Below, piece after piece: positions 4,658 through 48,046 of a stretch of 56,787 nt of DNA (position 1 is its first letter; each line of letters begins with the position of its first letter). Both the position numbers and the translations under genes were made by a program. The DNA comes from Rubrobacter aplysinae (lineage in GTDB: Bacteria > Actinomycetota > Rubrobacteria > Rubrobacterales > Rubrobacteraceae): positions 401,884-458,670 of the forward strand of contig NZ_LEKH01000001.1 in NCBI RefSeq assembly GCF_001029505.1, written 5' to 3'. A model generated the notes under the pieces. That model saw only the letters and a program-made list of their open reading frames with translations. It was not told the origin of the DNA and searched no databases.

Positions 4658-4673
4658 CCGCCGACTAGCCCGA

Positions 4674-4754
4674 CTAAGCGCCGGAGGCGAAAGATATGTA
4701 GATAATCGCCACCGCTATCGTGATGATTATCGAGACGATCAAGAGCTCTCTCAC
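4674..4754 (-). CDS. 26-residue single-pass membrane peptide
   Basis: A GTG at 4754 is preceded by GGGGGAG at ideal spacing. The peptide is charged at the start (MREL), then almost purely hydrophobic (LIVSIIITIAVAIIYI), ending FASGA. That is a textbook single transmembrane helix. Its size resembles small accessory peptides such as KdpF, but no kdp genes are nearby, so no function is assigned. It is convergent with the CorC-type gene, whose stop lies 17 bp away. Confidence 0.45.
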   Translation of the reverse strand: MRELLIVSIIITIAVAIIYISFASGA

Positions 4755-5056
4755 GTTTTCTCCCCCGTAACTCTACTGTAGAGGCCTGTAAAAAGCCGGT
4801 AGCGGCGATGTTACACGAGTTTATACCCCCGTCGGACGGTAAGGGCGGCAACCCGGAAGGCCTGATTATCCCGGCTCATCTACCCGGTAATCCCGCGTTT
4901 CAGGAAAAGGGCACTTACCCTCCGCCGGTTCTGCGGGAAATCTCCTCTGGACGGGGCGGTGAGTATCGGCTCTCGGTGGCTCGCTCCCGGCATTCTCCGT
5001 GCGTAGCCCGTCTCGGGGCATCGGGAACCATGTCGTTCGTGCTGCGGACTCCGACT
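4755..5056. other. Intergenic region with nothing recognised
   Basis: About 300 bp between the small membrane ORF and the end of the ABC exporter gene. Both strands have short open frames, but none with a ribosome site and protein-like composition. The part next to 4754 must hold the small ORF's promoter, though no clear -35/-10 pair stands out. I see no strong hairpin with a T-run for the exporter transcript. Confidence 0.4.
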
Positions 5057-36915: not shown

Positions 36916-37017
36916 GTCTTCACAGTTCCTTTATACGCCAAGTAAGGTGATTCTGCAGTCAAATATGGAATTCAGATCGAGATCAGGTCGAGAATGGTGA
37001 ATTGTCCACCCCAAGCC

Positions 37018-37693
37018 CTACATCCGCAGCTCTTCCAGAAACTCCGACGGTACGTCGCCACTCGATACGAGCAGGCGGTCTCTTGCGCGGGTACAGGCGA
37101 CGTAGAGCAGGTGACGCTCCGTGTCGTAGACTTCGGCTAGATCCGCCTCGTCCGATACGGTCTCTATCCGCTCCTGGGACGGGATAACCTCATCGTCGCA
37201 GCCCATCACGACAACGGCTCGGAACTCTAGTCCCTTTGCGAGATGCATCGTGCCGACCGAAACATGTCCGCCGCTCATTTCCAGGCTCTCGTCCAACACC
37301 TTGAACGGGAGACCGGCATTCTCGATGGCACTGCTAGCCCGGTCCAGCTCCGCCGCCGAGCGGACGAAGATGCCCGTCTCGTGCGGCATTACGCCTGCTT
37401 CCCGCAAGCTCTGGGGCCACAGGCCCACCGCTTCGGCTTCCTCTTCTAGGCTATCCAGAACCCGGATCGTGGGCATTGGTCCATTAAACACCGAGACCGT
37501 TCTGCCCCTTTCTTCTACGTTGCCGTCCACGTCGGAGAGCTCGGAGTCCAGCAGCCGGTCGGCCTGCGAGCGGATCTGGTGCGAGGTCCGGTAGTTGATC
37601 TGCAGCGTCCGGGACCGTCCGCGGATGTCTATGCCGAGCGCCTTCCAAGAGACGGGAGACTGGGAGATCCTCTGCCCCGGATCCTCGGCGAAA
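37018..37693 (-). pseudogene. UvrD/PcrA-type helicase, C-terminal remnant
   Basis: The open frame from the TGA at 37694-37696 to the stop at 37018 encodes only the C-terminal part of a superfamily 1 helicase. It starts in the middle of motif III/IV: AEDPGQRISQS, SWKALGID, TLQINYRTSHQIR, then VGTMHLAKGLEFRAVVVMG (motif V) and LLYVACTRARDRL (motif VI). Walker A and the DExQ motifs are missing. No start codon precedes the homologous part; GTG 37530 would allow only an internal fragment. The break lies exactly where the AT-rich MazG-like gene begins, so the 5' part was lost when that cassette arrived. Confidence 0.85.
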
Positions 37694-37694
37694 C

Positions 37695-38039
37695 CTATAA
37701 ATCAGTGTACTTTTTGTTGGATCCGCGTGACTTTTCTAAGGGATATTTTTGCTCATTGACTGTAATCTTTTTCGACACAGCTTCTTGTATGTCTATCGAA
37801 AGGTCATGCGTTAAATAGGTGAGCAAAATGGCGATGTCTGCGATCTCGGACGTGATCGCTGCGTGGTGCTCTTCTACCACTCGTGGAACTTGCTGATCAC
37901 TCGACCAAACAAAGTACTCTAGTAGCTCTGCTGCTTCCACCGAGAGTGCAGACGCCACATTGCGCACTGTATGAAATTGCTCCCAGTCCCGAGCTTCTCG
38001 GAACTCTAAAAGAGCGTTAACCAATTCGGGTGTGAGCAT
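37695..38039 (-). CDS. MazG-like nucleotide pyrophosphohydrolase (dCTPase/RS21-C6 type)
   Basis: The 114-residue protein is an all-alpha NTP pyrophosphatase: REARDWEQFHTVRNVASAL opens the family's first helix, SVEAAELLEYFVW gives the E-x3-E metal ligands and SEIADIAILLTYL the E-x2-D pair. Such enzymes hydrolyse dCTP or modified dNTPs to the monophosphate. It is AT-rich and 18 bp downstream of the HNH endonuclease gene, forming a two-gene cassette. Its stop overlaps the helicase remnant. A role in nucleotide-pool based defence or in clearing modified phage nucleotides is speculative. Confidence 0.82.
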   Translation of the reverse strand: MLTPELVNALLEFREARDWEQFHTVRNVASALSVEAAELLEYFVWSSDQQVPRVVEEHHAAITSEIADIAILLTYLTHDLSIDIQEAVSKKITVNEQKYPLEKSRGSNKKYTDL

Positions 38040-38057
38040 TTCTCCTCTTATATCTGT

Positions 38058-38981
38058 TCATTCTTGAAAGCAGTTCTCGTTGTGCCAACTCAAGAAGTCT
38101 TCACTCGGACGATGGCCAGGATCTTGAGGTACGTTGGAAAGAGTTTTTCCGTGCAAACGATAATACGGTTGCCCATTGAACCATTGTTCTTTGATTTGCG
38201 GACTCACTTCCACGCGCAACTCTGGCGTTACGGTAACGAGACCGGCATCGAACAGCTTGTGAAAGTCTGATCGCAGGAGCATACCGTTCGACACCTCGTT
38301 TACGCCACTTCTCGCAAAGGGCCTAATGTGCGCCGCTTCGAGTACGGGAAGAGTACTTTCCCCGGTGATCGCACAACGGCGTCTGTAAGCATCTGTAACC
38401 GCCACCCTAAAGGCACCTTGCCCCAGACGAGGCTTTATGATCGTAGGTTCGCCGTAACGCGCACCGGCCTCTTGGACCTGATCCGGTAGACCACCAGCAA
38501 GCGAGCTCTTGAATCTTTCCTGAACCGCCGCCCACAAATTTACCCCGCTTGATTCTTGGGTATCATAGTAACGTCCTCGGACAACGTTACTAGCCCAATC
38601 TGGAGGATTGGCGATCCAGTTTTCCTTCCTCCAAAAGAAGGGGGACGTCAAGATAGTGCATCCAATTTCCGGGTCTCTTGCACTCGGATCGGAGACAAGC
38701 CGTCTGATCATCGTCTCAAAGGCTTCACGAGATTCTGCACCATTCTTTATCCCGAACACTTCCCAGGCGAGGGACAGTGGCAGTTTGGAGAATTTGACGA
38801 AAGTCCCGCCGCCCGCAACGTGATTGTATGGTCGCTTGAGCTTGAACAAAAATGGTGCTCCCGTTTCTAGCCCGACAAAGGGAGCTTTACCGCTAGGCTG
38901 CCAAAAATTGACCTCGTCTACGTTAGCGTTGCTCAGGAAATCGAACCATCCGTTATCCGTCACCCCTAGCCATAGCTTCAT
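38058..38981 (-). CDS. HNH endonuclease with N-terminal PUA/ASCH-like domain, probable restriction enzyme
   Basis: The 307-residue protein has a C-terminal HNH_2 domain: FRVAVTDAYRRRCAITGE, LEAAHIRPFARSG (catalytic AAHIRP) and NGMLLRSDFHKLFDAGLVTV. The N-terminal 160 residues (VNFWQPSG, PFLFKLKRPYNHVAGGG, WEVFG) resemble PUA/ASCH- or SRA-like base-reading domains, suggesting a modification-dependent (type IV-like) nuclease. That domain call is tentative. ATG 38981 overlaps the stop of the truncated methyltransferase (ATGA), so it may be translated by coupling. It is AT-rich compared with the genes upstream. Confidence 0.8.
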   Translation of the reverse strand: MKLWLGVTDNGWFDFLSNANVDEVNFWQPSGKAPFVGLETGAPFLFKLKRPYNHVAGGGTFVKFSKLPLSLAWEVFGIKNGAESREAFETMIRRLVSDPSARDPEIGCTILTSPFFWRKENWIANPPDWASNVVRGRYYDTQESSGVNLWAAVQERFKSSLAGGLPDQVQEAGARYGEPTIIKPRLGQGAFRVAVTDAYRRRCAITGESTLPVLEAAHIRPFARSGVNEVSNGMLLRSDFHKLFDAGLVTVTPELRVEVSPQIKEQWFNGQPYYRLHGKTLSNVPQDPGHRPSEDFLSWHNENCFQE

Positions 38982-39421
38982 CGCAATACCCCGTAGGTAA
39001 ATATCAATCCATGTAAATAAGCGGCCAGGTGGGGAACATGCCTATAGAACTCGGTCGCCGTCTCATCACCGGATAGGCCGTCGAAGTCGGCGAAGAGTCT
39101 AGGCTCGAGGTCGGCGGCCTCTTCGTCCTTCTCGGTGCGGCGCATCAGGTCGTCAACCAGCACCTTGGGGTGGACCTTCTCCTGGATGTACAGCGGCGGC
39201 GCGTGGACGACGAGGTCGGACCAGTCCTGCTCGTCCTTGCCGCGCCACACGAGCTGCGGGTCCAGGTCCCGGTTGCGGCGCTCGTAGGCGAGGCGCACCG
39301 GGTCTTGCTCCTCCTCCCGCATCACCGACTGGTGCTCGGCGGTCGGGATGTTCGGGCGCGTGGCATCCTCGTGCGTTAGCGTCTCCACGGACTTTGCCGA
39401 CTTGTTGGTCTTTCTCGCCAT
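38978..39421 (-). pseudogene. DNA methyltransferase (type III Mod-like), N-terminal remnant
   Basis: The first 128 residues match the start of a site-specific DNA-methyltransferase that accompanies Res-type helicase nucleases: LTHEDATRPNIPTAEHQSVM, REEEQDPVRLAYERRNRDLDPQLVW (core: YERRNRDLDPQLVW), GKDEQDWSDLVV and PPLYIQEKVHPK. After FYRH (about 39038) the similarity stops and a 19-residue unrelated tail ends at 38978. All catalytic motifs (DPPY, FxGxG) are missing, so there is no methylation activity. The HNH gene begins inside its last codons. Confidence 0.82.
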
Positions 39422-39439
39422 GGGGTTAGATCAACCTTC

Positions 39440-39811
39440 CTACGCTTCCTCGTCGAAGGCCAGTTCCAGTTCCGCAGCCGCCGCTGCTAGCCTCCTGTCT
39501 CGCGTCCACAGCCGCGCGCCGCTATGCAGGACCGTGGCAGCCAGCAGGTGTACGTCCAGGTAGCCGATGCCCCGGCCCATCAGGGCGCGACGCTCGATAA
39601 ACTCCAGAGCCTCGGGGTCCGTCGCCGTTGGGGCGGCGGGTAAATCTTCCAGAAGCCGGAGCACCTCGCGCCGGTCCTTGAGGTTGCCACAGGCCAACTC
39701 ACCGATCACGAAAGGATGCATCATCACCTGTTCCGTCTCCAGGGCCTCATATAGCTTCTGCTCGCCCGAACGCAGGTGATCTATCCAGACGGAGGTGTCT
39801 ACCAGGATCAC
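39440..39811 (-). CDS. vapC: VapC-type PIN-domain toxin ribonuclease
   Basis: The 123-residue protein has the PIN acidic residues in order: D in ILVDTSVWIDHL, E in FVIGELACG, D in GIGYLDVHLLAA and D in ARLWTRDRRL. VapC toxins cut tRNA or rRNA and are held inactive by VapB. Its ATG overlaps the vapB stop (ATGA), the standard antitoxin-first arrangement. It lies just upstream of the truncated methyltransferase. Confidence 0.92.
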   Translation of the reverse strand: MILVDTSVWIDHLRSGEQKLYEALETEQVMMHPFVIGELACGNLKDRREVLRLLEDLPAAPTATDPEALEFIERRALMGRGIGYLDVHLLAATVLHSGARLWTRDRRLAAAAAELELAFDEEA

Positions 39812-40005
39812 GCAGACTCGGGCCGCCGTCGGGGAACAGGATCCAGGTCCGGGTCGCTGCCGCCGAGCCGTGCCAGACGTCTGGCGCTCTCACGTTCGAT
39901 CAGGGCGCGCAATCCTGAGTGGATCAGGGCAGTCCGCCCCTCCACGCCGCTTACGCGCCGGGCCTCTTCCAGTAACTTCTCGTCCAGATTCACGGTGGTG
40001 CGCAC
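39808..40005 (-). CDS. vapB: VapB-type antitoxin
   Basis: The 65-residue protein has an N-terminal ribbon-helix-helix domain (RTTVNLDEKLLEEARRVSG, then TALIHSGLRALIERE) for operator binding and a charged C-terminal tail that should block VapC. GTG 40005 follows GAGGAGG. An inverted repeat with a TATATT-like -10 lies immediately upstream, consistent with autoregulation. Confidence 0.9.
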   Translation of the reverse strand: MRTTVNLDEKLLEEARRVSGVEGRTALIHSGLRALIERESARRLARLGGSDPDLDPVPRRRPESA

Positions 40006-40022
40006 GATTCTCGCCTCCTCTG

Positions 40023-40069
40023 TATGTGCATGAAATATACATCATATGACGCTTATTTTCATGTACATA
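40023..40069 (-). promoter_or_regulatory. Inverted repeat in the vapBC promoter region
   Basis: TATGTGCATGAAA (40023-40035) and TTTCATGTACATA (40057-40069) are inverted copies with one mismatch, separated by 21 bp, in a short AT-rich gap between the orphan antitoxin gene and vapB. A minus-strand TATATT overlaps the inner edge of the left arm. It is a likely VapB (or VapBC) operator. Confidence 0.5.
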
Positions 40070-40080
40070 TACCCGCAATC

Positions 40081-40305
40081 CTACCGCTCGTTCATCTCTT
40101 CGCGGGTGAACTTGCGACCGCCGGTACGGAGCTTGCCGCGCAGTTCCTCTACCACCGCCATCGCCCTCTCGGCCTGTTGCTCGCGCCGCGCGTAATCCTC
40201 CAGCCAAGCCCGAAACTGCTCGTTCAAGGTGCTGTGTTCGGCCCGCGCCCGCCTGCGAGCGGCCTCGATCAGCTTTTCGTCGGCACTGAAGGTGATGTTC
40301 TTCAT
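40081..40305 (-). CDS. Antitoxin-like ribbon-helix-helix protein without a toxin
   Basis: The 74-residue protein starts with KNITFSADEKLIEAARRRARAEHSTLNEQFRAWL (core: NITFSADEKLIEAARRRA), a DNA-binding domain found in VapB-type antitoxins, followed by a charged tail. ATG 40305 has AGAGAGGT upstream. The usual PIN toxin gene is not directly downstream; the next gene is another antitoxin, vapB. It may be an orphan or may regulate the neighbouring pair. Confidence 0.75.
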   Translation of the reverse strand: MKNITFSADEKLIEAARRRARAEHSTLNEQFRAWLEDYARREQQAERAMAVVEELRGKLRTGGRKFTREEMNER

Positions 40306-40373
40306 CAGACGTACCTCTCTGTCCCCTTTCATGTCACGTATAGACGCGCCACTCCCGCGTCAGTCTCTCCGCG

Positions 40374-40667
40374 TCAGACATGGATGGCCTCTCGCTCCAC
40401 GAACGGGCGCAGCTCCGGGCGGAGTGCCTTGTCGGTAACGAGGTCCACGGGTCTTCCTAGCAAGTCCTCCAGATAGAACTGGAGGCCGAAGTACTGGCCC
40501 GAGGTAGCTGGGCCATCGAAAGCGACCAGTATGTCCACGTCGCTCTCCTCGTCGGCCGTGGCGCGCGAGGTGGAGCCGAACAGGGCGAGCTCCCGCACGC
40601 CGAAACGCTGTCTCAGCTCCGGCATGCAAGCCCTGATCCGGTCTAGATCCTCGTCGGTTCTTCTCAT
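40374..40667 (-). CDS. MNT-type nucleotidyltransferase (MntA-like antitoxin)
   Basis: The 97-residue minimal nucleotidyltransferase has the GSxxR..SDxD active site: LFGSTSRATADEESDVDILVAF (core GSTSRA, SDVDILV). MntA proteins AMPylate and neutralise HepT toxins. No HepT (DUF86) gene is adjacent, though this restriction locus type commonly carries both. The ATG overlaps the res stop (ATGA), so its translation depends on ribosomes finishing res, which is now broken upstream. Confidence 0.85.
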   Translation of the reverse strand: MRRTDEDLDRIRACMPELRQRFGVRELALFGSTSRATADEESDVDILVAFDGPATSGQYFGLQFYLEDLLGRPVDLVTDKALRPELRPFVEREAIHV

Positions 40668-43600
40668 ACCCTCTCCCCGATAAGCGATGCCACCATCTTA
40701 TCGAACTCGGACTCTACCTTCGCCTCGAAGTCGGACTCTATCTGGTACGCCTCGGTCAGCTCGGCGAAGGCCCAGCGGCCGTAGCCGCCGTGGTTGTTTA
40801 CGCCGGGTATCCAGTAGTTATCCATCGTGGACTTTTTGCTCTTTGCGTCCTCGCCTCTGAAGCCCTTGATCTCAACCACCAGGTTCAACGGATCATCTTC
40901 CCCGTGTCCGTCGTCCACCTGCACGATAAAGTCGGGGATGTACTTGTGCGGCTCGGAGCCGTGGAGGTACGGGACCTCCAGGCCCAGGTTGTGGTTCTTG
41001 ACGTAGGAGACGACCCTCGGGTGAGACTCGGCCACGCGGCAGAGCTCGGCCTCCCAGTCGCTGTCCAGCACGGCCCAGTTGACGTGGCAGCGGCGGGCGT
41101 CCGTCTCCCAGCGCTCGCTCTTGGAGGTGTTGAAGTTGACGTGCACCGTCGAGCCCGTGTGGTTGTACGGGTCGAGCACGGCCTTGATGGGTTTCTCCCC
41201 GACGAGTGCCTGGGTGACACCGGCGGTGATGCGCTCGCAGACCATGTCCGCGAGCTCCTGGTACATGAGCTGCGCCGGGTAGGTATCGCCCTTGCACACC
41301 AAGTAATTATCTAGCCACTGCCGGGTTATGCGCTTGAGTTGCCCGAAGAGGTGCAGCTTCGGCTCCTCGCCCGGATCTCGCCACCTGGTGTACAGCAGGC
41401 GCCGGGTGAGGTGGAAGAGCAGGGTGGAGCGGCGCATGTCGCCCAGGTGCTCCAGGCTCAGATCCACGTCCTCGCCGATGATCCCAGCGTTCTTGGTGAC
41501 GGACGGCCCGACGAGGTCCGGCGTCAATTCAAGCACGGAGTCCTCGCCGAACTCCGCCGTCAGCCGCTCTTCCGGCAGCTCCACCCGGTAGCCCTCGACG
41601 CGGGGAAACCGGATCTCCAGCCCGTCCCGCTCGGGCCGGACTGCCTTTACCTGCACCGTCTCGCGCGGCGGCTGCGGCGGCGCGACGACGGGCTTCGCGG
41701 TGAAGTCGAACGGGATGCCGAGCACGTCGGCGTACTCGACGTTGAACAGCTCGTCTTCGTTCAGGTCGTAGGACTGGCGGCGCAGGGCGCGCCCGATCAC
41801 CTGCTCGCACAGTAGCTGCGTACCGAACGCCCGCACCCCGAGCACGTGGGTGACGTTGCTCGCGTCCCAGCCCTCGGTAAGCATCGAGACAGAGACGACG
41901 CAGCGGATGGAGTCCCCGAGGCGGCCCGGCTTTCCGACGGTGTTCATGGCCTCCCGCAGCAGGTCCTGCTCGGTGAGGTTATCGGCCTGGCGGCGGTCGC
42001 CGGTGCAGTCCACGATCTCACGCCGGAAACGCTCTATCTCATCGGACGCCATCTCGCGGAAACCTTTGTCCAGCACCTCGCCGGACTCAAGTTGCTCGCT
42101 GTCTATGAGGAGCGTCTTCGGGCGGGCCAGCGGGTCGCCGTGCTCGTTGAAGTTACGGAACAGCGGCAGGCGCCCGTTCTCCAGCGTAGTCGAGCCGTCG
42201 TCGTTCTCGCGGTTGAAGCCGGAGATGAAGTCGTAGACCAGCTTGGAGACTGCGGTGTTCTGGCACACCACGATAAAGCACGGTGGCACCCCGATCCCGG
42301 CCTCCTCCCACAGCCGGTGCGTCTTCTCGTAGTGGCTGTAGAGGGCCCAGAGCGCCGTCTGGAGCTCTGCGGGCAGGCTTAAAGGGTCCAGGTCTTTCGC
42401 CTTACCCCGGCCTTTCTTCGGCATCCGGGCGCGGACGTTCTCCCAAAGGTTGCGGAACTTCGGCATCTCGCCGCCGGGGATGTTGTCGGCGACGGGGACG
42501 CGCGGCAGCTTGACGATGCCGCACTCGATGGCGTCCATCAGGGAGAAGTCGCTCATGGTCCAGGGGAAGAGCGTCCCCTCCGCGTAGCCGGAGCCGCGCA
42601 GGAAGAAGGGCGTGGCGGAGAGGTCCATGACGCGTGTCACGCCGAGCTTGCGATTTACCGCTTCGAGGCCCGAGATCCAGAGCCGCGCCGCCTCGTTGTT
42701 CTTCTTGGCCTCGTCCCGGTCCTCGCCCTTGAGCTCCGGCTTCTCGTCCTCTTCCGGCTTCTCCCGGTAGCAGTGGTGGGCCTCGTCGTTGATCGCCATG
42801 ACGTGCTTCATGCCCATCAGGTCGGGCATTACGCGCTGCAGCATCTGGCCCTCGGTTTCGAGGGTGTCCAGCTCATCGCCCCGGCCCTGAAGGAGCGAGC
42901 AGCCGCCTTTGGAGAGGTCCATGCGCTCGCGCAGCTTGAAGGCATGGTAGTTGGTGATGACGATCTTGGCCCGGCCCAGGTCGGCGAGCATGTCGTTCGG
43001 TACCATCTCGCGGCCGTGATAGTAGCTGTCCGGGTCGTTCGGCTGCAGCACGCGCAGCCGGTCGCGGATGGTGATCCCGGGCATGACTATCAGGAATCCG
43101 CGGGTGAACCGCTTGCTCTGCGGACGTCGGACGGCGTTGATCGTCTACCAGGCGATGAGCATCGCCATCACGGCCGTCTTGCCCGCTCCGGTGGCGAGCT
43201 TCAAGGCGAGGCGCGAGATCTCGGGGTTCGCGTCACCGTTCGCGTCGGAGAGGTGGTCCAGGAACGCCCTGCCGGTCTTCCCGGCCTGCGGCGCGACCTC
43301 GGTCAGCCAGATCGCGGTCTCCACCGCCTCAAGCTGACAGAAGAAGGGCCGGATGCCGCCGAACTCGTGGTGCCGCCAGTGCTGGAGTAGCCGGGCCGTC
43401 TCGGGTGTAACCTGCCAGTCGCCCGGGTTCGGACGGCTTCTCCACTCGTCCACGTGCCGGCGGAGGCTGTTTATCATCGAGGTGGGGTCGTACTGCTGCT
43501 GCTCGGTGGAAAGCCCCTTGCCTTCGTCGTAGACGAACTGTTGCTGTTCGGAAGATCCCTTGCGCTTCCTCGGCTTCGGTATCGGGGTCGTGAACTCCGC

Positions 43601-43776
43601 GGGTCGGCGACTCTCTATGACCTTCTGAGTAGGCTGGCCCTCGTGATCAAGCTCCCAGTGACGACCAGGATACTTGTACCAGGATACTTGTAAGGGGAGT
43701 TGAGGATAGGTTGCTCGAAGAACGGGTTGACGGCGATCTCGTACCTCCCCTGGATGGTGGACTCTCCTTTTTTCAT
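40664..43776 (-). pseudogene. Res-type DEAD/DEAH helicase-restriction endonuclease, doubly interrupted
   Basis: The original gene runs from ATG 43776 (AAAAAAGGAG nearby) to TGA 40664, about 1,030 codons. It had Walker A KLATGAGKT, motif II INDEAHHCY, helicase motif VI-like QVIGRALRR, and a C-terminal nuclease domain with YIPDFIVQV and LVVEIKGF (PD-(D/E)xK). Two lesions break it. A perfect 14-bp tandem duplication (43665-43692) shifts the frame after codon 33, and an amber TAG at 43145-43147 replaces what relatives have as glutamine after MLIAW. Everything after the amber codon is open to the end, so decay is recent. A partial product from ATG 43084 would lack Walker A. Confidence 0.88.
43665..43692. 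repeat. 14-bp perfect tandem duplication inside res
   Basis: CCAGGATACTTGTA occurs twice back to back (43665-43678 and 43679-43692). On the coding strand both copies read YKYPG, one in each frame, so deleting one copy joins the upstream frame (ending FEQPILNSP) to the downstream frame (starting RHWELDHEG). Confidence 0.95.
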
Positions 43777-43921
43777 TGTAGTATGCAAGCCTCTTACGGC
43801 TCACGCTCCCGGGAAAGGTCGCCTCGGCTGCTCCGGTCAGCCCCGAACCTCCGGACCCGTTTACACCTTGTAGACTACCCCGAGTAAGAACTTCACTTAG
43901 GAACTTCGCTGGAGGAAGCTC

Positions 43922-44635
43922 ATGGCATCACTCGGAGGCAAGGTCGCCCTCGTAACCGGGGCGAGTCAGGGGCTGGGAAGGGCGCTCGCGCTCGCCTACG
44001 CCCGAGAAGGAGCGAAGCTCGTCGTAAACGCCCGCAGCGAGGAGAGCATCCGGCCCGTCGTCGAAGAGGTGGAAGGGCTCGGCGCGGAGGTGCTGGCGGT
44101 GCCCGCCGACGTCGCGGAGTCGGAGAGCGTGGACCGGCTCGTCTCGCAGGCCGCCGACCGCTTCGGCGGCATAGACGTGCTCGTGAACAACGCCGGGCTT
44201 CTGGGACCCCGGGTGAAGATAGAAGAGTTCCCCGAGGATGAGTGGCGCAAGGTGCTGGACGCGAACCTCACCGGGGTGTTCCTGGTCTCCAAGGCGGCCA
44301 CACCCCACCTGAACGCCGGGGCCTCCATCATCAACCTCGTCAGTGGCGTGAGCGTCGAGGGGCGGCCCGAGTGGGGCGCGTACTCGGTGAGCAAGTTCGG
44401 CGTCGAGGGGCTGACCCAGATCCTGGCCGCGGAGTTAAAGGATCGCGGAGTGCGGGCGAACGCCGTGGACCCCGGCGGGATGAACACGGACATGCGCGCC
44501 GCCGCCTACTCCCGCGAGGATGCCGAGAGCCGTATCACCCCCGAAGAGAACGTGGACGTCTTCCTCTACCTCGCCTCGGACGAGTCGCAGGGCGTAACCG
44601 GCGAGCGCTTCAAGGCCCAGGAGTTCGTGAGGTAG
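43922..44635 (+). CDS. SDR-family oxidoreductase
   Basis: A classical short-chain dehydrogenase of 237 residues: NAD(P)-binding TGASQGLG near residue 13, NNAG in VLVNNAGLLG, catalytic serine in INLVSGVS, and YxxxK in AYSVSKFG (near 160). DPGGMNTDM follows, where most members have PG. The ATG follows GGAGG. A short direct repeat of GAACTTC lies in the leader. The substrate cannot be predicted. Confidence 0.9.
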   Translation: MASLGGKVALVTGASQGLGRALALAYAREGAKLVVNARSEESIRPVVEEVEGLGAEVLAVPADVAESESVDRLVSQAADRFGGIDVLVNNAGLLGPRVKIEEFPEDEWRKVLDANLTGVFLVSKAATPHLNAGASIINLVSGVSVEGRPEWGAYSVSKFGVEGLTQILAAELKDRGVRANAVDPGGMNTDMRAAAYSREDAESRITPEENVDVFLYLASDESQGVTGERFKAQEFVR

Positions 44636-44802
44636 ATCTAAGGAGACTCAGGAGTCTCGAGAGATAAGAATCCAAGGGTCCGGCGCTATCCGGCGGCCTT
44701 TGGAGCCGGTTGGCTGGTTGGCGTCATATAATCTGCGCTTCGAGGGTACTTCGGGGATACATAGGGGCGACCGTGCCGCGACGCCCGCGAGAGAGGAGAG
44801 AT

Positions 44803-45744
44803 ATGGCTTTGGATCCAAACATCAAAGAGATGCTAAATGCGATGGAGCGTTCGGGGCAGCCGCCCATAAGCGAGCTGGAGCCGCCCCAGGCCCGCGAGAT
44901 GCACAAGCAATTAGTCCTCGGGATGGAGATCACGAGCGTCCCGGTGTTCACCATCGAGGACCGTAAGATACCCGGTCTGGCCGGCGAGGTGCCCGTCCGC
45001 GTCTACACCCCGGAGGGAGAGGGGCCGCACCCACTGCTCGTTTTCTTCCACGGCGGCGGCTTCGTGCTCGGCGGCCTCGAGGACTACGACCCCGTCTGCC
45101 GCAGGCTGTGCTCCCGCTCGGGGCACGTGGTGGTCTCCGTGGACTACCGGCTGGCTCCGGAGAGCAGGTTCCCCGCCGCCGTCGAGGACTGTCTGGCCGC
45201 TACCCGCTGGGCCGCGGACAACGCCGCCTCCCTGGCCGGCGACCCCAGCCGCGTCTCCGTGATGGGCGACAGCGCGGGCGGCAACCTGGCGGCGGTGGTG
45301 GCCCGCCGCATCAGGGACGAAGGCGGCCCGCGGCTCGCCGGTCAGGTCCTCATCTACCCGGTCACCTACCAGGTCGGGCCGGACACGGCCTCGCGCAAGG
45401 AGAACGCCGAAGGCTACTTCCTGACCCGCGACGACATGGCCTGGTTCGGGGGTCATTACTTCGAGAGCGTCGAGGACGCCAAGGGCCCCGACGCCTCCCC
45501 GGCCAACGCCGAGAGCCTCTCGGGGCTGCCGCCCGCGCTCATCGTGACCGCCGGGTACGACCCGCTGCGCGACGAAGGCGAGGCATACGCCGGGAGCCTC
45601 GCGGAGGCCGGCGTGCCGACGGATCACACCCGCTACGACGGCATGATCCACGGCTTCCTCAACTTCTACGGCGTCACCGAACGCGCCGACGAGGTGGCGA
45701 GCCAGGCCAGTGAGTGGTTGAGGAATATCGCCGGCGAAGGGTAG
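44803..45744 (+). CDS. Alpha/beta hydrolase, hormone-sensitive-lipase (HSL) family esterase
   Basis: The 313-residue protein has the HSL oxyanion motif FFHGGGFVLGG (near residue 85), the nucleophile in VMGDSAGGNLAA (near 155), acid in TAGYDPLRDEGEAYA and histidine in GMIHGFLNF. The family hydrolyses short- to medium-chain esters. ATG 44803 has GAGAGGAGAG upstream; the frame extending to 44710 has none. It precedes a gene of unknown function by 21 bp. Confidence 0.9.
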   Translation: MALDPNIKEMLNAMERSGQPPISELEPPQAREMHKQLVLGMEITSVPVFTIEDRKIPGLAGEVPVRVYTPEGEGPHPLLVFFHGGGFVLGGLEDYDPVCRRLCSRSGHVVVSVDYRLAPESRFPAAVEDCLAATRWAADNAASLAGDPSRVSVMGDSAGGNLAAVVARRIRDEGGPRLAGQVLIYPVTYQVGPDTASRKENAEGYFLTRDDMAWFGGHYFESVEDAKGPDASPANAESLSGLPPALIVTAGYDPLRDEGEAYAGSLAEAGVPTDHTRYDGMIHGFLNFYGVTERADEVASQASEWLRNIAGEG

Positions 45745-45765
45745 CCGCGGAGCAGGAGCCCGTAG

Positions 45766-46221
45766 ATGTTGAATGCCGTAGAGCTCGGAGTCCTCGATGG
45801 CTGCGCAAATCACTACGAGCTTTTCTACTTCCTCTTCGCCGAGGTGAACTACGGCGGGCAGGTGGTGAGGAAGAGCCCGGAAGGGGAGCCGGGGATCTCC
45901 GTGCCGGGCGATGAGGTGGCCCGGCACGCACAGCGGCTCATAGAGGCAGGGCTTATGCGGTGCTGGCGCATTCGTGACGATCCGGGAGATAATGGCCCGT
46001 TTCTAACGCCGGAGGATCAGACCGCCGGGCTCTATCGCGAGCGCGTCGAGATAACGCAGCCCGGCGAGCCGGAGTTCGCCGCCTACCGGGGCTACGATTG
46101 CGTGACCTTCGAGGAGCACCTGGAGCGGTTCGGCCAGGGCCCGCACGAGTTCAGGATCACACGTTCCGGCATAGACGAGATAGAGAGGCCGGAGTACGAG
46201 GCTCTCTACCAGGAGCGGTAA
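45766..46221 (+). CDS. Unrecognised 151-residue protein
   Basis: The acidic, soluble protein has an N-terminal region ELGVLDGCANHYELFYFLFAEVNYGG (fragments such as ANHYELFYFLF) and a predicted winged-helix-like stretch VPGDEVARHAQRLIEAGLMRCWRI, reminiscent of small MarR- or phage-type helix-turn-helix folds, but I do not recognise a family. It follows the esterase by 21 bp in the same direction and may be co-transcribed. Confidence 0.65.
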   Translation: MLNAVELGVLDGCANHYELFYFLFAEVNYGGQVVRKSPEGEPGISVPGDEVARHAQRLIEAGLMRCWRIRDDPGDNGPFLTPEDQTAGLYRERVEITQPGEPEFAAYRGYDCVTFEEHLERFGQGPHEFRITRSGIDEIERPEYEALYQER

Positions 46222-46256
46222 GGGAGCCGTAAGAAGCGGCGCGGGATAGGTCGGCG

Positions 46257-47063
46257 TCAGAGCAGGGAGCTTATGGCCCGGGCTATCGGCTCCGGGTGAT
46301 CCTCCGGCGTAAAGTGTCTGCCGCCCTCCACCCTCTCCAGAGTGCCGCCGAGCTCGTAGGCTAGCCGGTAGCCGTACCCGATGGGCTGGAAGCTGTCGGC
46401 GACGCCCCACACGACGCGGGCCGGTACGTCGAGGCGTGGCAGCTCGTCCGCGACGGCCAGCGTGTCGGCGGAGTCCAGAGAGCGGGCCTGCCGCACCAGC
46501 GCCGCCGCCCCGTCCGCCTGCTCGTACAACGGCAGATGCTCGGCCACGGACTCCCGCCACCGGCTGCGGCTATCGTGGCCGAGACCCAGGAACATCCCGT
46601 ACACGCGCCGGAACATCGCGGACGGCATACGCTCCGCCAGCGGCCCGGCGGCCCGCAGCGCTCGCACTCCCAGGATGGGCCAGGAGTCGTAGCTGATGCA
46701 GTTGGTGAGCACGAGGCCGCGCACCAGCTCCGGGTGGCGCACCGCGAGTATCTGGGCCACGCCCCCGCCGAGGTCGTGGCCGCAGACCACGGCCCCGCTC
46801 TCCAGCCCGGCCTCCCGCATCCAGGAGGCCAGGTACTCCGCCTGACGCCCGACGGAGATGTCGCGGCCCACACCCTCTTCTATGGAGCCACCGTAACCGA
46901 CCATCTCCCAAGCCAGCGAGCGTGCCCCTTCGAGACGGGGCACGACGTGCCGCCACAGCCGGGGCGAGGTCGGGATGCCGTGAACGAGCACCACGGGCGC
47001 ACCCGAGCCTTCTTCCTCCCAGCGCATCTTTATGCCCTCTACCTCTGCGCTCCTGGACTGCAT
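46257..47063 (-). CDS. Alpha/beta hydrolase, haloalkane-dehalogenase-like
   Basis: The 268-residue protein has VVLVHGIPTSPRLWRHV (oxyanion HGIPTS), the nucleophile elbow VVCGHDLGGGVAQ with aspartate as nucleophile, VVWGVADSFQPI and the C-terminal histidine in EGGRHFTPEDHPE. An Asp nucleophile places it in the dehalogenase/epoxide-hydrolase branch. Actual substrates are unknown. It is convergent with the preceding hypothetical gene. Confidence 0.88.
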   Translation of the reverse strand: MQSRSAEVEGIKMRWEEEGSGAPVVLVHGIPTSPRLWRHVVPRLEGARSLAWEMVGYGGSIEEGVGRDISVGRQAEYLASWMREAGLESGAVVCGHDLGGGVAQILAVRHPELVRGLVLTNCISYDSWPILGVRALRAAGPLAERMPSAMFRRVYGMFLGLGHDSRSRWRESVAEHLPLYEQADGAAALVRQARSLDSADTLAVADELPRLDVPARVVWGVADSFQPIGYGYRLAYELGGTLERVEGGRHFTPEDHPEPIARAISSLL

Positions 47064-47149
47064 ACGCTCCTCTCGGGCATAGAAGATGATCGGGGAAACG
47101 TACCGGCGAGCGGGGCCCTACGCCGCTCCCAAACAGGTTTTCATAGTTT

Positions 47150-48046
47150 TCAGGGGTCTCCGCCGCTCTCCACCGGCAGGTCCCCCCGGCCGCCCCACTC
47201 GTTCCAGGAGCCGTCGTAGTTGGAGAGGTTCGTGTAGCCGAGGCGGTACAGGTTGAAGAGAGCGACGGTCGCCGCGACGCCGCCGTTGCAGTAGGCGACC
47301 ACCGGCGCGTCGCGGTCCTCCGGCACCCCGGCCTCCCGCGCCAGTTGCTCGATCTCGGCGCGCGCGAGGAACGTGCCGGTCTCCGGGTCTTTGAGGGCGT
47401 CGGCGTGCAGGTGGCGGGCCCCCGGGATATGCCCGCCGCGCGGGCCGCGCCGCACCTCGCCGGTAAACTGGCCCCGGTCCCGGGCGTCGAGCAGCAGGGT
47501 ATTACCGTCTTCGCTTGCCACGAGCGCCTCCGCCGCGCCAGAGCGCAACCCGGGCCGGGGCTCGAGGGTAAAGTTTGCAGGCACCGGACGGGATATCTCG
47601 TCCGTGACGGGGCGGGCCTCGGCGGTCCACTTGCGCCAGCCGCCGTCCAGTACGTATGTCTCGTCGTGGCCGTAGTACAGCAGCGCCCACCACAGCCGGG
47701 TGGCGAACTGGCCGCCGGTGTGGTCGTAGATGACTACGCGCGTGGAGTCCCCGATGCCCCGGCTCTGCATCGCTGCCGCGAACCGCTCCGGCGGCGCCAG
47801 CTGGGTCGGGACGGGGTCGTCGGGGTCCGTTATGTCCGTGGTCCAGTCCACGAAGACCGCACCGGGGACGTGGGCCTCGGCGTACTCCTCGGGCGCGCCG
47901 CGGTAGATGGCCTCCTGGGAGCCGTCCTCGCGGGTATGTTTGTCCACGTAGCCCCGGATGTCCACGACGCGCAGGTCGGGGTCGTCCAGGTGTTCGGCGA
48001 GCCAGGACGTGCTTACCAACGGGTCGTTCTGTTGAGGGTTATCCAC
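47150..48046 (-). CDS. Sulfurtransferase with two rhodanese domains
   Basis: The 298-residue protein has two rhodanese modules: an inactive N-terminal one (VDIRGYVDKHT, GHVPGAVFVD-like AHVPGAVFVDW) and a C-terminal one with the active cysteine in VVAYCNGGVAAT (near residue 245). The loop CNGGVAA differs from both thiosulfate (CRxGxxR/T) and mercaptopyruvate (CGSGVTA) types, so the donor is uncertain. GTG 48046 shares one base with the CCA gene stop (TAGTG), with GAGGAGG before it, so the two are coupled. Confidence 0.88.
   Translation of the reverse strand: MDNPQQNDPLVSTSWLAEHLDDPDLRVVDIRGYVDKHTREDGSQEAIYRGAPEEYAEAHVPGAVFVDWTTDITDPDDPVPTQLAPPERFAAAMQSRGIGDSTRVVIYDHTGGQFATRLWWALLYYGHDETYVLDGGWRKWTAEARPVTDEISRPVPANFTLEPRPGLRSGAAEALVASEDGNTLLLDARDRGQFTGEVRRGPRGGHIPGARHLHADALKDPETGTFLARAEIEQLAREAGVPEDRDAPVVAYCNGGVAATVALFNLYRLGYTNLSNYDGSWNEWGGRGDLPVESGGDP

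Follow-up and report, generated by a model that had tools for sequence, protein, structure and literature searches.

A candidate HNH–MazG defence pair in place of the methyltransferase core of a decayed type III-like restriction-modification operon

In a decayed type III-like restriction-modification (RM) operon of Rubrobacter aplysinae, two intact genes, one for an HNH nuclease with a predicted base-reading domain and one for a MazG-like pyrophosphatase, lie where the core of the methyltransferase gene (mod) and its junction with a UvrD-type helicase gene would be expected. A laterally acquired HNH–MazG module has taken the place of that core and junction, and we consider it fairly probable that it encodes a type IV nuclease with a nucleotide-pool partner. 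The best reading of the sequence comparisons is that such modules may be spreading through defence operons, and the recurrence of both the pair and the replacement in unrelated bacteria points to a putative two-gene antiviral module that has so far gone unrecognised.

The window locus and its host operon

The window, a stretch of 56,787 nucleotides (G000:C1:401884-458670 of a 3.19-Mb assembly), carries on its minus strand, in this order, genes for Res, an MNT nucleotidyltransferase, an RHH-type protein, VapB, VapC, a Mod remnant, the HNH protein, the MazG-like protein and a UvrD remnant (Table 1). When profiles made from intact relatives were used, the Mod match ran from 39418 to 39038 and stopped at codon ~128, and the alignments of six other Mod genes to the window Mod reached residue 129-132 only. 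UvrD similarity began at 37692, which corresponds to residue ~466 of the 688-residue helicase and falls inside the GDxxQ motif, and reached the stop at 37018; the MazG stop codon immediately precedes the start of this match. Since the E-values were 2e-45 for Mod and 7e-105 for UvrD, chance matches are excluded. The original prediction, made from this DNA alone, had Mod leaving its family at codon 128 (about 39038) and a helicase starting in mid-motif at about 37693, and both breakpoints were borne out. It had also stated that only HNH and MazG-like genes of different composition lie between the remnants, which agrees with the GC contents: the cassette has 50.3%, whereas the Mod and UvrD remnants have 65% and 62%, respectively, and the window as a whole 65.5%.

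Table 1. Features of the RM locus, in window coordinates.
Feature	Coordinates	Strand	Remarks
Whole RM locus	36946..43935	.	insertion; crp/fnr-type regulator gene on one side, SDR gene on the other
UvrD-type helicase remnant	37018..37692	-	C-terminal 225 codons; starts in GDxxQ motif
MazG-like protein (PF12643), DCTPP1-like	37695..38039	-	114 aa, intact; Pfam 1.5e-17; DCTPP1 6sqw, E 1e-19
PUA-superfamily + HNH nuclease	38058..38981	-	307 aa, intact; HNH_2 8.7e-14; AlphaFold pLDDT 88.4
HNH domain	38061..38426	-	residues 186-307; H218, N232 and H241 invariant in 70 homologues
N-terminal domain of HNH protein	38502..38981	-	residues 1-160; ASCH/EVE/YTH-like fold, predicted modified-base reader
Spacer, Mod remnant to HNH	38982..39037	-	56 bp; no Mod similarity
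Type III methyltransferase (Mod) remnant	39038..39421	-	N-terminal ~128 codons; PADLOC MTase_III 3.7e-43
VapC	39440..39811	-	accessory toxin-antitoxin gene, between Res and Mod
VapB	39808..40005	-	accessory toxin-antitoxin gene, between Res and Mod
RHH-type antitoxin-like ORF	40081..40332	-	
MNT nucleotidyltransferase	40374..40667	-	
Res subunit, BPTD_3080 family	40664..43804	-	NF046055, 1084 bits

The intact mod and helicase genes that the original prediction had proposed looking for were present in a distant relative (G110), where Res (1030 aa), Mod (926 aa) and UvrD (688 aa) are adjacent, and the breakpoints could be mapped against intact relatives. Since all three genes are intact and adjacent there, ~3.8 kb is missing from the window, between Mod codon 128 and UvrD codon ~466. 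Res, the Mod N-terminus and the UvrD C-terminus of the window belong to the same family of type III-like Res-Mod-UvrD systems (BPTD_3080). In contrast with the intact operon of G110, the window RM is not working: Res carries an in-frame TAG at 43145-43147 (TGG TAG ACG ATC) where relatives read W-Q-T, and with Mod and UvrD truncated as well, no part of the system is intact. The Mod remnant has no catalytic domain, so the cognate methyltransferase is absent from the operon, and the complete Mod and Res that define a type III RM system are not found at this locus. Neither the Res nonsense codon nor the island nature of the RM locus (see below) had been noticed in the original prediction.

A second genome, G018, has Res-RHH-VapB-VapC-Mod in the same order as the window. 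Its Mod gene (L063:8830-9205) is interrupted by an IS630-like transposase gene (named from sequence) and has a TGA in frame, so the RM of G018 is decayed too; a dN/dS value for the Mod remnant against G018 was discarded because this stop shifts the codon alignment. Gabija (GajAB) was considered for the UvrD piece, which matches GajB models, and was rejected because the piece lies beside Res and Mod and, where complete, the operon reads Res-Mod-UvrD. The RHH ORF of the window has no toxin partner; in G037, a PIN-like gene comes after the related ORF (L061:3426-3650).

The HNH and MazG-like proteins

The HNH_2 score of the window protein exceeds the cut-off, and the catalytic H-N-H is intact. 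In an AlphaFold model built from 70 homologues, residues 1-160 gave VIA Z scores of 12.8 to ZmASCH, 8.6 to EVE and THYN1 and ~8 to YTH; according to this model, the protein is a PUA-superfamily (ASCH/EVE/YTH-like) reader fold joined to an HNH nuclease. The matches support the base-sensing fold implied when the nuclease was first described as base-reading, and the protein probably senses modified bases. T8, W27, P29 and W73 are invariant in the alignment.

VcaM4I was the closest solved structure by sequence and the best whole-protein Foldseek match (1.3e-8). Like VcaM4I and TspA15I (EVE-HNH), the window protein is ~300 aa long with an N-terminal PUA-superfamily reader and a C-terminal HNH part, and the HNH part of VcaM4I aligns with that of the window by sequence (E 3e-12). 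The N-terminal domain, however, has no sequence match to VcaM4I and is nearer ASCH by Z. VcaM4I restricts 5mC/5hmC DNA and T4gt phage (PMC7897488), and the paper describing it mentions no pyrophosphatase partner, whereas the window nuclease has a MazG-like neighbour. The HNH domain of TagI (SRA-HNH) superposes on window residues 186-307 (Z 14.0, 106 residues), although its reader is an SRA domain rather than an ASCH/EVE-like one. Since the ASCH score exceeds the EVE score and ASCH ligands are, to our knowledge, poorly known, specificity for 5mC/5hmC is uncertain.

The MazG-like protein scored 64 bits against PF12643 (cut-off 27), with E35, E38, E65 and D68 of the ExxE/ExxD metal-binding motifs invariant. 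Its closest solved relative, DCTPP1 (RS21-C6), aligns end to end with residues 11-114 and has in common with it the ExxE...ExxD motifs and both tryptophans; unlike DCTPP1, the window protein, a predicted dCTPase, is bacterial and its gene is paired with a nuclease gene. Mammalian DCTPP1/RS21-C6 has a preference for 5-methyl-dCTP and reduces the amount of it in cells (PMC4491611). By similarity to DCTPP1, the MazG-like protein probably destroys modified DNA building blocks, with a predicted preference for dCTP or 5-substituted dCTP. Judged by these resemblances, the reader-nuclease and the MazG half may each point independently to modified cytosine.

A nucleotide hydrolase beside a modification-dependent system has a precedent in the MutT homologues that adjoin SauUSI homologues (PMC7641849), and MazG is among the untested defence domains of DefensePredictor (PMC13092281). 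We also observed DCTPP1-like MazG genes in other company. In two other Actinomycetota families (L074:5364-7363 and L075:5076-7081), such a gene overlaps a gene for a GIY-YIG + SLFN-g3 (DUF2075-type) helicase, possibly a second MazG-nuclease module, and in a third Actinomycetota genome, at L056:808-2954, the gene for a 336-aa protein with an N-terminal MazG-like domain adjoins a gene of weak PLD-type nuclease similarity. Thus, partnering of MazG genes with nucleases may be general.

For a type IV nuclease, which cleaves modified DNA, salvage of modified nucleotides carries the risk that the host's own DNA is cleaved. In the mechanism that we propose, the PUA-type domain would flip and read a modified base (a 5-substituted cytosine being the most likely), upon which the HNH domain would be licensed for cleavage of incoming modified DNA, as in type IV restriction, while the DCTPP1-like protein would hydrolyse the matching modified dCTP. 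Such hydrolysis would starve a phage making modified DNA, and the pyrophosphatase may also keep modified nucleotides salvaged from degraded phage DNA out of the host chromosome, which would thereby be spared as a target of its own nuclease. If true, such a dedicated nucleotide-pool partner would represent a novel solution to the self-cutting problem of type IV systems. In its strongest form, which we regard as possible and put forward tentatively, the pyrophosphatase would remove the very nucleotide that its nuclease recognises, combining an antiviral effector with a self-protection absent from ordinary type IV systems, and replacement of methyltransferase genes would be the module's means of spread.

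Occurrence of the HNH–MazG pair in other genomes

A scan for the HNH family with one genome per species yielded 80 loci and a viral collection 10 more; the set analysed comprised 88 loci with a full HNH gene, the window included. A MazG-like gene directly adjoins HNH on the same strand in 17 of the 88 (15 downstream, 2 upstream), and these loci belong to Actinomycetota, Pseudomonadota, Nitrospirota, Gemmatimonadota, Krumholzibacteriota and Verrucomicrobiota; one further pair was present in a Burkholderiales sample. Because this MazG occurs in only 17 of 197 sampled relatives' genomes, the probability of chance adjacency is negligible. Across 11 pairs, HNH distances are correlated with MazG distances (Mantel r 0.67, p 1e-4), and on the HNH tree the pairing label requires 9 gains or losses compared with 12.9 when shuffled, with 1 of 500 shuffles as low. 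By these comparisons, HNH–MazG is a conserved, operon-like pair whose clustered association has been repeatedly gained or lost. The suggestion that the pairing may itself be a unit therefore held up: the pair recurs elsewhere, and the same truncated ends were not encountered without the cassette. Approximate dN/dS values (synonymous sites are near saturation) were 0.05-0.11 for HNH and 0.05-0.07 for MazG in close pairs with estimable dS, which indicates purifying selection on these two intact genes.

These data also bear on whether the two genes belong together at all, since they could be unrelated cargo sharing a defence island, a stand-alone type IV HNH nuclease next to a house-cleaning or separate-defence MazG, brought together by nothing but island clustering and co-transfer. 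Only about one HNH gene in five has MazG as its neighbour, so that the nuclease does not need MazG, the association comes and goes on the tree, and VapBC, ORF6N, DUF1016, BRO-N and Fic-like genes share the same operons. However, the adjacency is short-range, on the same strand and nearly always HNH first across phyla, the distances of the two proteins co-vary, and MazG adjoins other nucleases too. We consider the cargo explanation rather doubtful and continue to favour a functional module.

The Rubrobacteraceae HNH sequence nests among otherwise betaproteobacterial sequences (support 99/96), and the GC content of the cassette is below that of its surroundings in G031 and G037 too; together, these observations indicate a lateral origin. 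Four plasmids carry HNH homologues, none of them close, and no homologue was detected in GenBank phages at E 1e-30. An IMG/VR viral contig (L156:6001-7283) carries an HNH–MazG pair beside an IS5-like transposase, although it is possibly a host contig since its MazG is nearly identical to that of L095/L096. No paper describing the pair was found in a limited open-access literature.

Replacement of mod at other loci and the order of events

About 10-11 of the 88 HNH loci, a minority context, are collinear on one strand between or beside remnants of the same RM family (the window, L078, L080, L082, L084, L086, L087, L131, L133 and L099/L100). In the window, Mod 1-128 precedes HNH and UvrD 466+ follows. 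Mod remnants on both sides are retained in L080 (Thauera; 4-45 and 837-926) and in L133 (Nitrospirota; N-terminus and 852-925, with MazG), while in L087 (Nitrospira) a Mod N-terminus cut near the window's position is followed by MazG and a full-length Res. The remaining loci keep Mod 2-66 (L078), Mod 869-925 (L082), MazG and then Mod 782-904 (L084, G037), Mod 719-925 and then Res (L086), a Res N-terminus (L131, G040) or pieces of Res (L099/L100); a short Mod N-terminus in L083 was recognised by eye only. Mod breakpoints range from codon ~42 to ~128, and deletions in the host gene span as many as ~800 codons. Since the breakpoints differ between loci, the replacement recurred, also in other phyla, and since the HNH and Mod families are each rare among the 197 relatives, their co-location is not due to chance. 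Repeated exchange of one Mod family for a nuclease offers natural experiments on competition between defence systems.

Repeated location in mod and membership of the HNH class are also features of a homing endonuclease inserting itself into mod. Yet the host gene is deleted rather than interrupted, with breakpoints that vary, instead of being otherwise intact around a precise insertion at one site; most HNH loci lie outside mod, and the protein has a PUA-type reader domain. We rejected this explanation as most improbable. Also rejected, and only marginally less improbable, is a composite system in which what is left of Mod, Res and UvrD functions together with HNH–MazG. Several remnants keep open frames, and in the window the fused frame of Mod remnant and spacer terminates at an ATGA that overlaps the start of HNH, as the Mod remnant of L087 also does. 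Against this, remnant extent varies by locus, those of L080 and L082 are internally deleted or frameshifted, remnants are absent beside most HNH–MazG pairs, and the UvrD piece has neither N-terminal ATPase motifs nor an obvious start.

An epigenetic conflict could explain why mod in particular was lost. Here, the nuclease would read an adenine (or other) mark made by Mod and be tolerated only where the methyltransferase is destroyed, with mod replacement as its mode of entry. The Mod core is gone at every locus with HNH embedded in this operon, and no full-length Mod of this family lies beside HNH at any of the 88 loci. Moreover, m6A is the mark recognised by YTH domains and, it has been proposed, by ASCH domains (PMC11037411), and methyl-dependent nucleases can kill or exclude methyltransferases (PMC2614495, PMC8989522). 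The RM system and methylation-dependent HNH nuclease of PcaRCI/PcaRCII likewise compete for one genome, but that conflict ends in silencing of the nuclease gene (PMC8989522), whereas in the window the methyltransferase gene is physically replaced. On the other hand, the genome bin of L133 also holds another, intact Mod of the same family, which speaks against a strict Mod incompatibility, the DCTPP1 link points to cytosine, and the cassette may have landed in a dead RM operon simply because insertion there is tolerated; we judge this explanation unlikely. A strict incompatibility with 5mC was rejected as well: C5-methyltransferases occur in 11 of 28 HNH genomes, so the nuclease does not exclude host 5mC. 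Neither simple conflict model is thus strict. Under the preferred module reading, landing in mod may have been favoured because a dead RM operon would be a cheap, homology-rich site with conserved ends for recombination; alternatively, loss of the methyltransferase would remove an epigenetic conflict.

Comparison with close relatives allowed the layers of the window locus to be ordered. In the same-genus genome G001, 121 bp (4658 to 4779) separate the flank matches, compared with ~7.0 kb in the window; homology ends at window 36945 and restarts at 43936, and the site in G002 is closed up likewise. Since the flanking genes meet in G001, the whole RM locus is an island. G018 shares the accessory-gene order, VapBC included, so the accessory genes probably preceded the cassette. 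Thus, the locus is nested, with an RM island, accessory genes between Res and Mod, and a later HNH–MazG cassette over the Mod core; the ~3.8 kb of Mod and UvrD was probably lost upon cassette entry or afterwards.

The original prediction had proposed one event that deleted parts of two defence genes and swapped in the new pair. A foreign cassette between two truncated defence genes stands, but the relatives lend no support to a single event: in G037 the Mod C-terminus still follows a related cassette, and in G031 the cassette comes directly after VapC. A tblastn search for the Mod remnant between VapC and HNH in G031 returned nothing significant, and the start context and ~30 codons there resemble the Mod remnant by eye only. 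Between the window and G031, synonymous differences were far lower for VapC (pS 0.48) than for HNH (0.74) and MazG (0.75), which suggests repeated entries and/or later deletions, an argument for separate arrival that near-saturated synonymous sites and changing GC leave suggestive.

Other genes have accumulated in these operons. DUF1016/YhcG, BRO-N, Fic-like and ORF6N genes lie just before the Mod remnant in L080, L082, L083 and L078, preceded by a Res remnant in three of the four, and the Res-Mod-UvrD operon type looks like a cargo hotspot. In G040 (L067:2062-9217), an HNH relative lies immediately behind a Res N-terminal remnant and converges on genes named by inspection as McrB-like and McrC-like, which places two modification-dependent systems next to each other. 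A second insertion, with alpha/beta hydrolase genes, lies beside the RM island at window 44637-47165; in G001, a rhodanese-domain gene directly follows the SDR gene without it.
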